Virus record (IMG/VR): IMGVR_UViG_3300020380_000865
Location: 1 to 31,487 of that record
DNA length: 31,487 nt
DNA from: a virus
Strand: one strand, 5' to 3'
Shown here in pieces: positions 4,445 through 29,196 of this stretch (position 1 is its first letter; every line of letters starts with the position of its first letter). The notes under the pieces are model-generated. The model had not been told where the DNA came from. It saw nothing but the letters and a program-made list of their open reading frames with translations, and did not search any database. Both the position numbers and the translations under genes were made by a program.

Positions 4445-5329
4445 CTAAAGTGAAGCAATCGCATAATCTTTGCTTTTGAGTTCTATGTCATAGTCAACAG
4501 GCATATCAAAACTGATGGGGGGTGTAGCAGTAGGCATATCTGCATGACTACGAGGATTGGTCTTGTCGGGATGCGACTCTGAGTAATGAAACAGCGGCTT
4601 GTAGTAACCTCCGCGCATCCATGTCTTGTAACACAAACGATGCGCTTGCTCTTGAGTAAGATCGTCAGGCAAACATTTGTGATGCAAATTGTCGTAAGTA
4701 ATTGGAATGTCAAAATGCTTGACAAGCAATGATGGAGTCCAAATGCCCTTGTCCTCGTTTTCTACAACAAGACGAGACTGAACTGATTCGTCGCACTTGG
4801 CAAGGTTAGCCATGAAACGTGCAGCAATGTCAGCAGGGTCGCCCTTGGTGTTGTTGATATGGATATTGATGGGCGCACGGTAGTCGCGGGGCGCACCAAG
4901 CATATCCATGAGCCAGCCATGATGATTAAGTTCTTTGATGGTTTTAGCAACATTGTGTTTGCCCTCGCTCGCAAGGACATTGAACTGGTCGGGGTGACAA
5001 GAAACACGGATGCGCTTGTCTCTGATGATGGAAGCGCAATCTGCAAGTGCCGCCTCGATGTCAATGTAGTCGGGATAGTCCTCTAGTTTGAGTTCTGCAA
5101 CATCGTATGTAAGTAGGGGGAATAGATTTGAACTGACTCGATAACCCCAACCCTCTGAAGCGCATTGCTCAAGGATTTTGTATGTAACACGGATGTTGTT
5201 GAGTGTGCGAGCAGATACAGTAGCAACAGCTTCTTCACGGGGTAGCTTGGAAAACCGCGCCCAAGTCATTGTCTGAAACTTGTGACCCTGCTCTGATAGA
5301 CTGTTGGAGATACAGCATAGCGAATACAT
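4445..5329 (-). CDS. uvsE: UV-damage endonuclease (UvsE/UVDE family)
   Basis: A 294-residue protein matching the UVDE TIM-barrel family, whose members nick DNA 5' of UV photoproducts to start alternative excision repair. Family-type metal-site motifs are visible in order: SCHPDQFNVLAS, INIHINNTKGDP, VVENEDKGIW, ITYDNLHHKC and HYSES. The N-terminus (MYSLCCISNSLSEQGHKFQT) is also typical, and the length is close to bacterial UvsE. The start is fixed by a promoter whose -10 ends six bases before the ATG, giving a leaderless mRNA. The gene appears monocistronic between two promoters. A phage in sunlit water would gain from light-independent photoproduct repair. Confidence 0.93.
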   Translation of the reverse strand: MYSLCCISNSLSEQGHKFQTMTWARFSKLPREEAVATVSARTLNNIRVTYKILEQCASEGWGYRVSSNLFPLLTYDVAELKLEDYPDYIDIEAALADCASIIRDKRIRVSCHPDQFNVLASEGKHNVAKTIKELNHHGWLMDMLGAPRDYRAPINIHINNTKGDPADIAARFMANLAKCDESVQSRLVVENEDKGIWTPSLLVKHFDIPITYDNLHHKCLPDDLTQEQAHRLCYKTWMRGGYYKPLFHYSESHPDKTNPRSHADMPTATPPISFDMPVDYDIELKSKDYAIASL

Positions 5330-5335
5330 GATTTT

Positions 5336-5363
5336 AATATAGCACCTTTTTTAAGAAAGTCAA
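5336..5363 (-). promoter_or_regulatory. Promoter of uvsE, TTGACT-16-TATATT
   Basis: The -35 TTGACT (5358-5363), 16-base spacer and -10 TATATT (5336-5341) lie six bases before the uvsE ATG. The -35 begins three bases after the TAG stop of the preceding small ORF. Spacer and flanks are shared with the promoter at 4414-4441 over about 30 bases. Confidence 0.85.
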
Positions 5364-24104: not shown

Positions 24105-24608
24105 TTACAAATTAAAAAGATCAAGTAGTTGGCAAAAAGTTATTTCCGCAGCGCAATCAGTATTTAATACATGATCTGGTGAGCCTATTTCAAAGTTATT
24201 TACATGATACTCTTTTCTTAAGTCTCTGCTGGATTGTAAAAAAACTTCCGTAACTTGATTGTTGTTATTATTTTTTAGCTCTTCTCTTAAATGTTCATAT
24301 GGATTAACAAGACACATTATAACGTCAGACCCTTTTTGGACAGGGCGACCTTTAATTAAATTCTTATCTTCACCTTTGCAATAGATGGCGCACCATTCTT
24401 CTCTTGATCCTTTTTTATTTAAATAAGTTGCTACTGCATTCGCATTGCGTATGTTTTCTTCTCGACCTTTTTTACCGTAATTATCATTTGTAAACATACC
24501 TCTAAACTCGTCTCCATCGATAACAAAAGGTGTATTAAGGTAATTCGCCAGCATGTTACCTAAAGTAGTTTTTCCTGAAGCGGGTTGTCCGTATATTGAG
24601 TAAATCAT
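24105..24608 (-). CDS. APS-kinase-like P-loop kinase
   Basis: 167 residues with Walker A GQPASGKTT (6-14) and the APS-kinase-like motif IDGDEFRGMF...REENIRNAN. In true adenylylsulfate kinases this region binds APS and gives PAPS. The C-terminal half (AEITFCQLLDLF) is less conserved, and the protein is close in length to other members. In a phage next to a glycosyltransferase, it could phosphorylate a sugar or nucleotide intermediate rather than APS. It overlaps proline dehydrogenase by four bases. Confidence 0.8.
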   Translation of the reverse strand: MIYSIYGQPASGKTTLGNMLANYLNTPFVIDGDEFRGMFTNDNYGKKGREENIRNANAVATYLNKKGSREEWCAIYCKGEDKNLIKGRPVQKGSDVIMCLVNPYEHLREELKNNNNNQVTEVFLQSSRDLRKEYHVNNFEIGSPDHVLNTDCAAEITFCQLLDLFNL

Positions 24609-25444
24609 TTAAACCATTCCTTAAATATATTATATACAACAAATTTTAAATTCTTCCATTCTTTTAGCCTTCTGATGCAATAGGGAAGCCAATCAGTTCC
24701 AAACGGAACATAGACTCTAACTCTACGGCCTTCATCTTTATAACGTCTTTGTAAATCTCTTCTTATGCCGTAAAGAAACTCATAGTCATAATAGTTAGGG
24801 TCTGGTATTAAATCTATAATATCTTCCAAAAGCTTTTCGTCATGAGTACCAACAGCAGGTTTGTTTGCTTTGTGAGAATACAGGTTTGCAGAATGATTAA
24901 AAAACGAAGCACGTATTGATTCAGGGGTTTGGTATGAAATGTCTTTCGACTCTTGATAAGCACCCTTAACCAACCTGACAGAAACACCTTTGTCAATAAG
25001 TATCTTTAAATCGTCCTCAGTTCTAAACAAGTTTGCTTGAATTGCTACCCCGCAATTACCATGCTTTTCGTTCACAGAAATAGCGAGGTTACGAGTTAAA
25101 TCTGTTGTTGAAGAGTCCTCCATATCCAAACGAATTGTATGACCTACTTTAGCGGCTCGTTTAGCTAAATTATGTAAAATTATAAAAGCAAGATATGGAT
25201 GAACATTGAGTCCGACTTGAGAAGGCTTTATCGAAATATCAATCTTACGGCCTTCGAACTCTTTAATTATGTTACAGTATTGCTTGTAAGCCTTTCTAGC
25301 CTGAGAATAAGTTTTGCTATTTTCTCCAATATAATCTACCGAAACTTCATAACCGTCGTTTAATAAACGCAATATTTCTGATTTAGCTGACTCAAGATTA
25401 TCGCCAGCTATAAACCTTTTCGCCAATGGATATAAGAAAATCAT
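24605..25444 (-). CDS. Proline dehydrogenase
   Basis: 279 residues of a single-domain TIM-barrel ProDH. Family motifs are in order: RLDMED (105-110), RLVKGAY (157-163), GTHD (199-202), EFLYGIRRD (222-230), and VYVPFGTDWLPY...RRL with the Arg pair 258-259 that holds the substrate carboxylate. FAD-bound ProDH oxidises proline to pyrroline-5-carboxylate and passes electrons to the quinone pool, usually at the inner membrane. The size is similar to monofunctional Thermus-type ProDH; no P5C dehydrogenase is in view. A phage-borne ProDH could harvest electrons from host proline during infection. Confidence 0.92.
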   Translation of the reverse strand: MIFLYPLAKRFIAGDNLESAKSEILRLLNDGYEVSVDYIGENSKTYSQARKAYKQYCNIIKEFEGRKIDISIKPSQVGLNVHPYLAFIILHNLAKRAAKVGHTIRLDMEDSSTTDLTRNLAISVNEKHGNCGVAIQANLFRTEDDLKILIDKGVSVRLVKGAYQESKDISYQTPESIRASFFNHSANLYSHKANKPAVGTHDEKLLEDIIDLIPDPNYYDYEFLYGIRRDLQRRYKDEGRRVRVYVPFGTDWLPYCIRRLKEWKNLKFVVYNIFKEWFK

Positions 25445-26045: not shown

Positions 26046-27161
26046 TTAACTATTCATAATATCCGAGTCAGCTTTTCTGTAAGAGTTTTTGACTTTTCCT
26101 CCTCTAACCATTTTTAAGAACATATTAACACGAGCCATAGCCCAACCGCCGCGAGTCATTCCGGGTCTGTGGCTTTGAGAGAAAGCTCCCGCTCCCCTTC
26201 TGTAGACTTTCTTCAACTGACCAAGGGTAACTTTCTTTTTGTATTTTTCATTATGCTTCTTAACTTTTTCTTTTAAAGATTTAATAACAGATTCTGAGAA
26301 AGTAATCTTCCCGCCCTTCTCTCCAGCACTTCCGGGTTTATTTTTTTTAGAACCTTTTTTTCTTTCGCTTGGCTTGGATGGGGTTTGCGCTCCTGATTTT
26401 GGACCCGGTCTTTTGGCTTCTATTAAGTCGTTTACATCCATGACCTCTAAATATTCTTCGAGAGACATTTCATAATTGCTCTTAGCTTTTTTAAGTTGGT
26501 CTGAAGTTGGAGCACCTTTATCTCCCTTCTTACGCATTTTTTCTCCAGAGCCTCTTTTAATTCTCTCTCTCTTTTTGTGGATGTTTTCCCAAAGGCTGGC
26601 GTCATCTTCTTCCTCCGGTTCTTCTTCTTTGCCTTCTTTACCTTTCTTTTTGTCTTCGATTTTTTTCTTAACTATTTTTTCTTGCAAGGCTTTAGGTAAG
26701 GTCTTCTGCTCTTTAGTTAGTATCGCCTCAGACTCTTCGCACTCCAAGCACTGGTCTGTTACTTCTTCCTCTACGAAAGCAAGAGAAGGATTGATGGTTA
26801 GTAATTCATTATGATCGAATAAAGTTTCTCCGTCCCAAGCATATTCCTCTTCAGAGCCTTTTACTTTTTTACCAGCCCTCCACTGATAACAAGACCAGTA
26901 GCGAGCTTTCCATTTGGGGCCGGGATTCGAACAGTTGTGTCTAGCTCTAAAACTTTTTCTACGAGCTGGATCGTCTCGTTTAATCTCCATATTAGGATCA
27001 CCAAAGTTTACCTTTACGACATTACCCTTTTCGTTCTTTACATAAACGGAAAACTTTTTCGGGCCGTCTGGGGTTCTAAATGGTTTGTTTAGAGTTTTGT
27101 TTTCCTTGTTGGCTACGATTTGCTCTGTAAAATCAATCTCTTGCTCGTTTCTATTTTTCAT
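26046..27161 (-). CDS. Phage protein with two conserved virus domains, Lys-rich
   Basis: 371 residues. The N-terminal domain (about 36-94) has KFSVYVKNEKGNVVKVNFGD, SFRARHNCSNPGPKWKARYW and a second Cys at 91. The C-terminal domain (320-351) has YRRGAGAFSQSHRPG and WAMARVNMFLKM. These two patterns are ones I recall from uncharacterised marine phage and virus proteins (DUF5872/DUF5824-like), often in capsid-maturation or structural neighbourhoods. The middle is disordered, Glu/Lys-rich, with QCLECEE at about 137-143. It is encoded between the ExbD- and ExbB-like genes and overlaps the ExbB-like gene by 11 bases. Confidence 0.75.
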   Translation of the reverse strand: MKNRNEQEIDFTEQIVANKENKTLNKPFRTPDGPKKFSVYVKNEKGNVVKVNFGDPNMEIKRDDPARRKSFRARHNCSNPGPKWKARYWSCYQWRAGKKVKGSEEEYAWDGETLFDHNELLTINPSLAFVEEEVTDQCLECEESEAILTKEQKTLPKALQEKIVKKKIEDKKKGKEGKEEEPEEEDDASLWENIHKKRERIKRGSGEKMRKKGDKGAPTSDQLKKAKSNYEMSLEEYLEVMDVNDLIEAKRPGPKSGAQTPSKPSERKKGSKKNKPGSAGEKGGKITFSESVIKSLKEKVKKHNEKYKKKVTLGQLKKVYRRGAGAFSQSHRPGMTRGGWAMARVNMFLKMVRGGKVKNSYRKADSDIMNS

Positions 27162-27633
27162 TTTTTGAATCCAGTTTAAATTTTAAAATCATAAGTTGCA
27201 CTTGCAGTGGCAAGCTAAATACGATGCCACAAACTGTTGTATAAAATGCGGTGTTTAATCCCTCTTTTAATCCAGCTACAATCTGACTAGTTTGCAAAGA
27301 AGAATCTAAATTACCTTCGGTAGCTATAACTAAACCTATAATTGTTCCCAACAAGCCTAAAGAGAAAAAATGCTCGGCTGCAAACCAGCCAACTTGCGCT
27401 CTTTTTTCCAAAAAGTCTTTAGCTTCTTGCTCTTTTTTTTCGTTTATCTTATCAGCTAAGTAGCAGAGTCTACCAATATATCCAGACACTATGACGTATA
27501 AGGATATAATTAGTATCGATATACGTGACAAGTCGTTTTCAATTATTCTGGAAATGATGTCCTTCTGTTCTGCGAGAAAAACAGAAGTTAAAATAACAGA
27601 GTTAAGTAAGAACCACTTGGTAAAGGTTGTCAT
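27151..27633 (-). CDS. MotA/TolQ/ExbB-family membrane protein
   Basis: 160 residues with segments at about 8-22, 37-58, 84-103 and 124-150. The two hallmark stretches are SLGLLGTIIGLVI (91-103) and GLNTAFYTTVCGIVFSLPLQ (125-144), the proton-channel helices of the family, whose members form pentameric channels around ExbD/TolR/MotB-type dimers. It lacks the long cytoplasmic insertion of MotA and ZorA. Paired with the ExbD-like gene. The genes are co-directional and nearly contiguous, so a phage-encoded proton-driven complex is likely. Confidence 0.85.
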   Translation of the reverse strand: MTTFTKWFLLNSVILTSVFLAEQKDIISRIIENDLSRISILIISLYVIVSGYIGRLCYLADKINEKKEQEAKDFLEKRAQVGWFAAEHFFSLGLLGTIIGLVIATEGNLDSSLQTSQIVAGLKEGLNTAFYTTVCGIVFSLPLQVQLMILKFKLDSKNEK

Positions 27634-27671: not shown

Positions 27672-27983
27672 CTAACTTTCGTGGTATCTTTTGGCTTCTT
27701 CGTAGTCTGAATAATGGCTTCTAGGCTGATCTTTGTCGGATATACGAGGAGGCATGAATTTTCCGAAGATTTCCCTCTGTCTTTTACAAGTAAGGTGTTC
27801 GTATGTTTCTGTGCGAGCTTGAGCGTTGGCATCCATTTCAGCCTGTCTTTTCTGGCATTTTATGAAATCTTCTTCTTTTTTAACTTCTTCAAGGTATAAA
27901 CCGAAAATCCTGTTAACTCTTGGAGTGTCGGGGGCAACCCACCAAGTAAAACGAAAAAGTAATTTAAATAAAAAAAGCCTCAT
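27672..27983 (-). CDS. Hypothetical 103-aa protein
   Basis: N-terminal hydrophobic patch (MRLFLFKLLFRFTWWVAPDT) and a charged, helical remainder (VKKEEDFIKCQKRQAEMDAN; KDQPRSHYSDYEEAKRYHES). It may be membrane-anchored near the N-terminus. It overlaps the next upstream gene by four bases and probably belongs to the motor-gene operon. Function unknown. Confidence 0.6.
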   Translation of the reverse strand: MRLFLFKLLFRFTWWVAPDTPRVNRIFGLYLEEVKKEEDFIKCQKRQAEMDANAQARTETYEHLTCKRQREIFGKFMPPRISDKDQPRSHYSDYEEAKRYHES

Positions 27984-28258
27984 TTTTCCTGTTTTAAGTT
28001 ATTTATTTCAAATTTTAACTTCTCAATAGTTTGCTCTGAATCTTTTATTTGCTGCTTGAGCTTTTGATTTTGTGAGAATGTTTCGTTGTATAGGTTAGTC
28101 ATTGTTTGTGAAGTCTTATTGGCTCTTTCAACTTGAGTATTTATTTCTTCATCTAATTTTGTAAAATTCGACTTTTGCCATAAGAAAAAACAAACTAAGA
28201 TTGTTAAAATTAAACTTAAACAGGTTAAACTATGTTTTTTTCTAGTATCTTCAGACAT
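27980..28258 (-). CDS. Single-pass membrane protein with coiled coil (92 aa)
   Basis: One membrane segment at about 11-27 (CLSLILTILVCFFLWQK), then heptad-like coiled coil to the end (EINTQVERANKTSQTMTNLY; LKQQIKDSEQTIEKLKFEIN). The central ANKTSQ resembles MNKTSQ in the 19528 protein, so they could be paralogues. It is the first gene after the structured RNA. Possible envelope-spanning scaffold for the motor genes downstream. Function unknown. Confidence 0.65.
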   Translation of the reverse strand: MSEDTRKKHSLTCLSLILTILVCFFLWQKSNFTKLDEEINTQVERANKTSQTMTNLYNETFSQNQKLKQQIKDSEQTIEKLKFEINNLKQEK

Positions 28259-28307
28259 TAATTATTATTTGGTGAAGGCCAAATAAATTCGAATATTTAT
28301 TCAAGAA

Positions 28308-28640
28308 ATTAATGGGTAGGAGGATTCTCATTTACCTCCATCGTTTTGGGGTCACAGCTTGAGTTTTCAAGTCAAAACCCTACTTTGAGCCAACCCTCAT
28401 CGGCCCCCAGACTTGGTGAGTCCTGCCAATGAACATTGCACGTTAACTGCCGCGACAGCAGTTTATTCCGTCATACCCTTTGTCGCTCCGTCGAGCAACA
28501 AAATTTTACCGCTTGCACCTTTTCGGCTGAATAAATAGTAGCACGCACAGCGACCAACTGTTATTATTTTTTTACCTTTATGGTAATTCCCTTTATGGGA
28601 AAACTATCTACTCGTACTTTGCATCCCAAGATGCAAGCAA
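28308..28640 (-). ncRNA. Candidate structured non-coding RNA, class unknown
   Basis: 28259-28646 has no convincing gene and is visibly GC-richer than its flanks. Many hairpins can be drawn: 28619-28636 (7 bp, loop TTGG on the minus strand), 28587-28601, 28574-28584, 28480-28501 (9 bp), 28445-28463 (6 bp), 28427-28438, 28410-28422, 28389-28404, 28363-28378 and 28319-28339 (GGAGG/CCTCC). Long-range pairs are also possible: 28529-28535 with 28462-28468, and 28405-28409 with 28347-28351. Two stems (28480-28501 and 28389-28404) contain G-U pairs only if read on the minus strand, where the plus strand would have A-C mismatches. This sets the orientation. I do not recognise tmRNA, RNase P, 6S or group I/II motifs. 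Boundaries are approximate. Confidence 0.6.
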
Positions 28641-28646
28641 ATTATT

Positions 28647-28994
28647 TTAAAGAACAAAAATTTTATTTCCTTCTAGGAAAAGTTTTAAATGATATTGCTT
28701 GGGGAGTGGTTCCTTAGTTTTTGAGTCAAAGAATCTAAAGCCATTTTCCTTGCAATTATCTACATACACTTGTTGTTTCCATTTTGGTCTTGGGGCTTTC
28801 TTTTGCTCCAAGCTGTTAACCTCATTTAAATCAACCGCACCTTTAAGCCACCCAGCATTTTCAACCCTCTCGAAAGTCATGCTAAAAGCGTGACTCTTTT
28901 TTAGTCTTTGCTTTTTATTTCTAGCGTATCCCTCCTTAAAGCCCTTAATCTGTATGGACTTTTTCTTTGGGATGTATTTAGCTATTACGTTCAC
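28647..28994 (-). CDS. Hypothetical basic protein (115 aa), leaderless GTG
   Basis: A lysine-rich protein (MNVIAKYIPKKKSIQIKGFK; HAFSMTFERVENAGWLKGAV; GFRFFDSKTKEPLPKQYHLK). The open frame reaches 29162, but that would run back through a promoter and the gene at 29026. The GTG at 28994 lies seven bases after a -10 box and is preferred. No domain recognised. It is the last gene before the structured RNA. Confidence 0.65.
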   Translation of the reverse strand: MNVIAKYIPKKKSIQIKGFKEGYARNKKQRLKKSHAFSMTFERVENAGWLKGAVDLNEVNSLEQKKAPRPKWKQQVYVDNCKENGFRFFDSKTKEPLPKQYHLKLFLEGNKIFVL

Positions 28995-29001
28995 TTCAAT
29001 T

Positions 29002-29029
29002 AGTATAGTGAATCTTTTAAAAAAGTCAA
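29002..29029 (-). promoter_or_regulatory. Promoter, TTGACT-16-TATACT, leaderless GTG
   Basis: The -35 TTGACT (29024-29029) and -10 TATACT (29002-29007) have a 16-base spacer with TTTTTAAAA, seven bases before the GTG at 28994. The TGA within TTGACT is the stop codon of the upstream gene. It may also transcribe the structured RNA and the genes beyond it. Confidence 0.8.
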
Positions 29030-29196
29030 CTGCTTTTTTTATTTTTTTTAGCACGGTCTTTGCAACCGCAATCAATGCAGCACTTTGATTTTTTGTTCTG
29101 CAACCAAGGCTTTCTTGGGCCAAATATTGCGTCGAAGTTTTCGTCAAACTTTTCCTTATCAACTGGTCTTGGTTTATCTCCTTTTCCTGCGCTCAT
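29026..29196 (-). CDS. Small Cys-cluster protein (56 aa)
   Basis: Read by hand: MSAGKGDKPRPVDKEKFDEN, FDAIFGPRKP, then CCIDCGCKDRAKKNKK. The Cys4 cluster (CCxxCxC) may bind zinc. The KFDENFDAIFGPRK segment is like KFDPNYDEIFGKKD in the next gene, a motif I recall from other phage hypothetical proteins. ATG overlaps the previous stop as TAATG. Function unknown. Confidence 0.65.
   Translation of the reverse strand: MSAGKGDKPRPVDKEKFDENFDAIFGPRKPWLQNKKSKCCIDCGCKDRAKKNKKSS

Follow-up and report, generated by a model that had tools for sequence, protein, structure and literature searches.

In the 31,487-nt stretch of viral DNA analysed here (hereafter the window), no open reading frame (ORF) of 50 aa or longer overlaps positions 28308-28640 on either strand, and the question is what this region encodes. 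An earlier note had proposed a structured non-coding RNA of unknown class on the minus strand, either a free RNA or a large regulatory leader. Such an RNA is real, considering its homology to the manA RNA family (see below) and a fold that is better than those of shuffled sequences. The minimum free energy of the minus strand over 28260-28645 is -119.5 kcal/mol (z = -3.42), a value as low was found in none of 100 shuffles, and in minus-strand energy per base the region outranks each of 156 tiled 333-nt windows. The predicted fold has about ten hairpins and both of the long-range pairings described before, namely an 11-bp stem closing a 5' domain and a GGGUA/UACCC stem enclosing the manA core. 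Free energy was rejected as evidence for the strand, because the plus-strand fold of the same stretch also has a z-score of -3.06 and energy alone leaves the strand unsettled. The minus-strand orientation is nevertheless established by the manA match on this strand, by compensatory changes in the manA stems and the 5' domain, and by G-U pairs, which are A-C mismatches on the opposite strand. The description of the region as a GC-rich island is fair (44.4% GC, and 49.5% in the manA core, versus 36.3% in the whole window) but not extreme, as 5.8% of 333-nt windows and 1.9% of 192-nt windows are equally GC-rich. The limits first drawn for the RNA are slightly short at its 5' end, where a boxA-like site lies just beyond them (Table 1).

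Table 1. Features of the manA locus and its surroundings in the window
Feature	Positions	Strand	Basis or remark
boxA-like Nus antitermination site GTTCTTTAAAA	28645-28655	-	exact consensus match
5' accessory domain (closing stem D1, inner stem D2, three variable hairpins)	28511-28638	-	outside Rfam
D1, 5' strand GCUUGCAUCUU	28628-28638	-	pairs with 28511-28521
D1, 3' strand AAGGUGCAAGC	28511-28521	-	fold, comparison
D2, 5' strand GAGUAGAUAGU	28603-28613	-	pairs with 28529-28539
D2, 3' strand ACUAUUUAUUC	28529-28539	-	fold, comparison
manA RNA core	28309-28500	-	RF01745 model 1-192
manA P1 hairpin, GACG loop	28479-28502	-	fold and model; compensatory variation in siblings (alignment)
Enclosing stem, 5' strand GGGUA	28474-28478	-	pairs with 28314-28318
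Enclosing stem, 3' strand UACCC	28314-28318	-	covariation
UGACGGAAUAA motif and P2/P2b hairpin (ACG/CGU, AACUGCUG/CGGCAGUU)	28440-28473	-	
P5 hairpin GGAGG-UAAAUGAGAAU-CCUCC	28319-28339	-	
171-aa ORF upstream of the RNA	28647-29162	-	conserved upstream partner of group manA
92-aa coiled-coil ORF	27980-28258	-	50 nt downstream of the RNA; PHROG

A search with Rfam covariance models, which the earlier note had advised, gave a known class and thereby confirmed the RNA: the core is a manA RNA (RF01745), matched over model positions 1-192 of 192 with 54.8 bits (E = 2.6e-13), and the same match was obtained when the 192 bases were searched alone. Because this score falls 0.4 bits short of the RF01745 gathering cutoff (55.2 bits), a scan at the gathering threshold misses it and reports only two tRNAs in the window. 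The label of unknown class no longer holds, as about 60% of the region is full-length manA and siblings score at or above the cutoff. In agreement with the earlier note, no match to tmRNA, RNase P, 6S or group I/II introns, nor to GOLLD, ROOL or HEARO, was detected in 28200-28760 at E values up to 10, where only manA and chance matches appeared. A sequence search with GAGGTAAATGAGAATCCTC identified six close siblings, and L248, L251 and L295 were added via relatives of a 371-aa ORF and a 5'-domain search (n = 9 siblings). Of the nine, five score at or above the cutoff (L210, 60.4 bits; L211, 57.3; L054, 56.8; L202, 56.1; L209, 55.2) and four fall below it (L248, 53.2; L295, 52.8; L251, 49.1; L207, 48.7). 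A pattern derived from the two manA motifs of highest conservation has a single match in the window (0 expected in shuffles) and fits at least 120 stretches of viral contigs; of its 21 matches on genome contigs, only L213 and L220 are manA, and the others were discarded as chance. Phage records gave no BLAST match to the region, nor to the core of the sibling L248. The window RNA belongs to a known class but is a new form of it, with a divergent core, an additional predicted 5' domain and a putative boxA.

Related phages, in which the earlier note had recommended looking for covariation, show compensatory changes in the manA stems and in the 5' domain. For the manA stems, loci were accepted by anchors only, with no pairing demanded, and a small number of chance loci among those accepted reduce the paired fraction; a previous count that had demanded pairing to accept a locus was biased and was replaced. 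Of the RF01745 stems, the enclosing stem, P2 and P5 are supported by compensatory change. Eleven fully paired versions of the enclosing stem occur across loci (including GGGAG/CUCCC, GGGUG/CACCC, GAGUA/UACUC and AAGUG/CACUU), the third pair of P2 is U-G, C-G, G-C, A-U or U-A, and the outer three pairs of P5 exist in at least ten fully paired versions; for both the enclosing stem and P5, none of 5000 partner shuffles pairs as well. The unpaired motifs UGAC-GAAUAA and GGUA-A----AAUCC are conserved over very distant phages. Two further resemblances were dropped: the CCUCC at the 3' end looks like a 16S anti-Shine-Dalgarno sequence, but its letters vary with the stem, and the apparent Shine-Dalgarno-AUG arrangement in P5 (GGAGGUAAAUG) is missing from other manA RNAs.

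Upstream of this untranslated RNA, GTTCTTTAAAA fits the boxA consensus GYTCTTTAANA (PMC5725501) exactly and is identical to the boxA of the Legionella pneumophila Lens CRISPR array (PMC7862264). A strict boxA is located directly 5' of the RNA in 8/10 loci of the window group and is almost the sole match in each locus. With a relaxed pattern, 15 of 20 loci have a site within 230 nt upstream, compared with 0.45 expected from shuffles, although the effective number of loci is below 20 because they are related, and about five independent contexts with boxA are represented. No boxA-like site is present in L249, L252, L286, L291 or L292. In the window and several siblings the site shares bases with the final codons of the 171-aa ORF, and it stays with manA in L207, L295 and L054 although other sequence lies between. 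We infer that it may bind NusB-S10 and act in antitermination.

A homologue of the 171-aa ORF, which matches no Pfam or PHROG family, precedes manA in 9/9 group loci. The 92-aa ORF, weakly similar to Rz-like spanins (PHROG E = 3e-4), is missing from the corresponding place in 9/9 siblings; within the group, the upstream gene is constant and the downstream gene changes. Between the RNA and the 92-aa ORF no terminator was found, and the window offers only a weak promoter match. The published setting of manA (5' UTRs of mannose/fructose, nucleotide and photosynthesis genes) is not that of the window. Elsewhere in the window, a MotA/TolQ/ExbB channel family protein (27151-27633, minus strand; Pfam E = 1.4e-7) and a proline dehydrogenase domain protein (24605-25444, minus strand; Pfam E = 9e-27), possibly an auxiliary metabolic gene, are encoded by the phage. 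The sibling contig L210 carries a phage-encoded tmRNA (4962-5363; 133.4 bits; ARAGORN tag ANSNIDMAPSVAEADDILARFGFQEAALAA).

Across phages, exactly one manA copy is present in each of the 69 records that have it (29 + 8 + 32), 24 of which are 100-252 kb long, and a single manA place was counted in each of 37 phage records from isolates or single cells. The genes that follow manA are diverse: 108 next genes in viral contigs fall into 43 clusters. A single family, MSFANLKKK, to which gp32 of P-HM2 belongs, accounts for 28 of these genes, and transaldolases for nine. The RNA lies after gp23 in P-HM1, MED4-213, S-SSM5 and P-RSM4, after a capsid-type gene annotated gp24 in MbCM1 and after pstS in P-SSM3 and P-SSM4; it precedes talC in P-RSM6, purL/hsp20 in P-SSM2, gp32 in P-HM2 and an opposite-strand gene in P-TIM68. 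Even P-HM1 and P-HM2, close relatives of one species, have manA at different places. In the Rhodococcus phage Francesca (L300; 72.9 bits), manA (2481-2663) fills an unannotated gap between tRNA-Met (2406-2477) and tRNA-Lys (from 2665), 3 nt after the former and 1 nt before the latter (PP978770.1, 76482-76664), and in six contigs (L261-L264, L105 and L206) manA is tight against other tRNA genes. Other inter-tRNA gaps of Francesca (143-227 nt) may contain further RNAs, and a second conserved and apparently structured stretch of ~165 nt follows tRNA-Asp in L261 (2273-2441; GCTCAGAAGCATAAGTCTGAACAACTTATGTGGAG...) as well as in L262, L263 and L264.

A perfect TTGACA-17-TATAAT promoter lies upstream of manA in L254, with a terminator downstream; the same promoter is found in L253, where a longer hairpin with a U-run follows the RNA, and a terminator follows manA in L054. 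A promoter precedes manA in 96/131 distinct loci, often with a gene 20-60 nt on, and in cyanophages the order sigma-70-like promoter, manA, gene is frequent, the spacer being short. A crude terminator scan was positive in 26/129 loci, which is not taken as a rate since the scan misses long-loop terminators such as that of L253. In the cyanobacterial host order, manA was detected in one of 250 genomes. There it sits on a 189-kb contig that has, over the manA stretch, 93% identity to DNA of the phage P-SSM4. None was detected in plasmids.

With regard to the 5' accessory domain, D1 is 11 bp long in the window, L209 and L295 (3/3 members), and its 5' strand has an alternative local pairing with GAUGCAA that is also kept in 3/3 members. 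D2 is likewise 11 bp long in all three, four of its pairs being changed on both sides in L295 (AAGUAUGUAAG/CUUACAUAUUU), while the interior hairpins vary; the z-score of the fold is -4.15 in the window and -5.28 in L209. The domain has no Rfam family, and neither has a different 5' domain (GACGGAGUUAAAUACCCC type) of a second clade. A 24-nt match of the first hairpin of the window domain to WLE3 was rejected as a chance hairpin (23.9 bits versus 50). It is most likely that 28309-28638 (minus strand) forms one composite phage RNA, made of a divergent manA core and a phage-specific 5' accessory domain. That the domain is instead an unrelated mobile or structural insert beside manA, outside one functional RNA, seems rather doubtful: it occurs in only 3/10 group loci and is cleanly absent at the same site in L207, L248, L054, L202, L210 and L211, where boxA abuts P1, and other loci have different 5' or 3' structured stretches, but neither domain type was met away from manA, as all true members of the window type (3/3) and of the second-clade type (7/7) precede it. 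Manual reading tentatively suggests that the 5' domains of the two clades are exchangeable modules, tentatively because the two types have just three and seven known members. Separately, L207 and L295 have a common structured domain directly 3' of manA (closing stem GAGCGA/UCGCUC versus GAGUAG/CUACUC), in which UAGCGAU and GCGCCGUGAC are kept and which has no Rfam match in L207. In L202, the interval about 10-120 nt 3' of manA holds a second boxA-like site (TGTTCTTTGAA) and, after it, a structured stretch whose closing stem is a perfect one of 11 bp (AAATAGCGAGC/GCTCGCTATTT).

Taking family membership, both folds, the boxA-like site, copy number and neighbourhoods as established at the sequence level, we consider it probable that 28309-28638 (minus strand) is a single-copy RNA gene of large tailed phages which functions autonomously, in trans, during infection. 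The published assignment (PMC2864571) and the Rfam type (Cis-reg) would instead make manA a 5' leader that regulates in cis, possibly as a riboswitch, with the window copy controlling the downstream coiled-coil/ExbB operon and, as part of the same reading, the 5' domain serving as an expression platform or a second sensor. We regard this as unlikely, though still to be taken seriously. We weighed copy number, neighbours, tRNA arrays, promoters and terminators, and absence from hosts against the leader-like order in cyanophages, where the RNA may indeed act as a leader because a promoter often stands right before it and a gene of a recurrent family (28/108, 9/108) soon after. Of the two roles offered by the earlier note, a cis role may apply in the window, because no terminator precedes the 92-aa ORF, but relatives favour a free RNA, because they have it in a single copy, before genes that differ between loci, in tRNA arrays and, in some cases, with a promoter and terminator of its own. 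A leader would hardly be expected to face 43 unrelated next-gene clusters, opposite-strand neighbours or tRNA genes, to be separated from the next gene by terminators in some loci, or to be missing from the hosts. This genomic pattern argues against ligand-dependent control of the downstream gene. It is quite improbable that manA is a structural element, a 5' or intergenic fold giving mRNAs and tRNA precursors stability or defined ends (as a nuclease block or processing guide) with no target in trans; its location at cyanophage transcript starts, in an intergenic position in the window group and flanked by tRNAs in the actinophage and relatives would suit such a role, but the conserved unpaired motifs exceed the needs of a stabilising stem, and one copy per genome would be odd for a general stabiliser. 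The single copy, the deep conservation of these motifs and the boxA- or tRNA-like production suggest a fixed partner for this RNA.

For the family as a whole, the balance tips slightly towards manA being a stand-alone single-copy RNA gene of marine, cyanobacterial and Rhodococcus large tailed phages rather than a riboswitch, made as its own unit, Nus-antiterminated or cut from tRNA arrays, in some phages with exchangeable domains, and acting in trans on a common target. In such a scheme, the host RNA polymerase would read through from the upstream gene or start from a nearby promoter, and the boxA RNA would recruit NusB-S10, so that the untranslated folded stretch could be transcribed without premature Rho termination, as rRNA is. 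The transcript would then fold into the closed 5' domain and the manA core held by GGGUA/UACCC, and the folded RNA, free or trimmed from a longer transcript, might bind a phage or host target. In relatives, trimming by flanking tRNA processing, or a promoter and terminator of its own, could set its limits.

To our knowledge, manA has been a candidate riboswitch since 2010 with no known ligand; if it is autonomous, a ligand search would be the wrong experiment. In that case, the small set of phage non-coding RNAs that are known but have no assigned function would gain a small and very widespread member. The boxA-like sites suggest a way for phages to have long untranslated RNAs transcribed. In the literature searched, which covered a minority of subscription papers, no paper was found that places manA in tRNA arrays, in actinophages or behind boxA, or that reports it as strictly single-copy.

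GOLLD and ROOL are phage-borne structured RNAs that occur once per genome and often near tRNA genes. manA resembles them in these traits but is much smaller, and the window has no Rfam match to either. The relatives of the window RNA suggest that manA is a one-per-genome phage RNA gene, sometimes placed between tRNA genes, rather than a switch preceding metabolic genes. Another candidate riboswitch of the same cyanophages, the wcaG RNA (RF01761; PMC2864571, PMC9964418), has no match in the window in the Rfam scan. As in boxA-led rRNA operons and CRISPR arrays (PMC4807359, PMC7862264), the boxA of the window stands shortly upstream of a long untranslated structured RNA; in contrast to them, this putative boxA precedes a phage RNA. 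Compared with the manA motif of Weinberg et al. (2010), described as a probable riboswitch in 5' UTRs (PMC2864571), the window RNA shares the full-length match, the order of stems, the P1 GACG loop, the GAAUAA motif, the enclosing stem and the GGUA-A----AAUCC hairpin, and the family is known from T4-like marine phages. However, the window copy is divergent (54.8 bits versus 165-195 for cyanophage copies), possesses a further 5' domain of 128 nt as well as a boxA, and follows a conserved gene, whereas the published manA precedes a sugar-metabolism gene.
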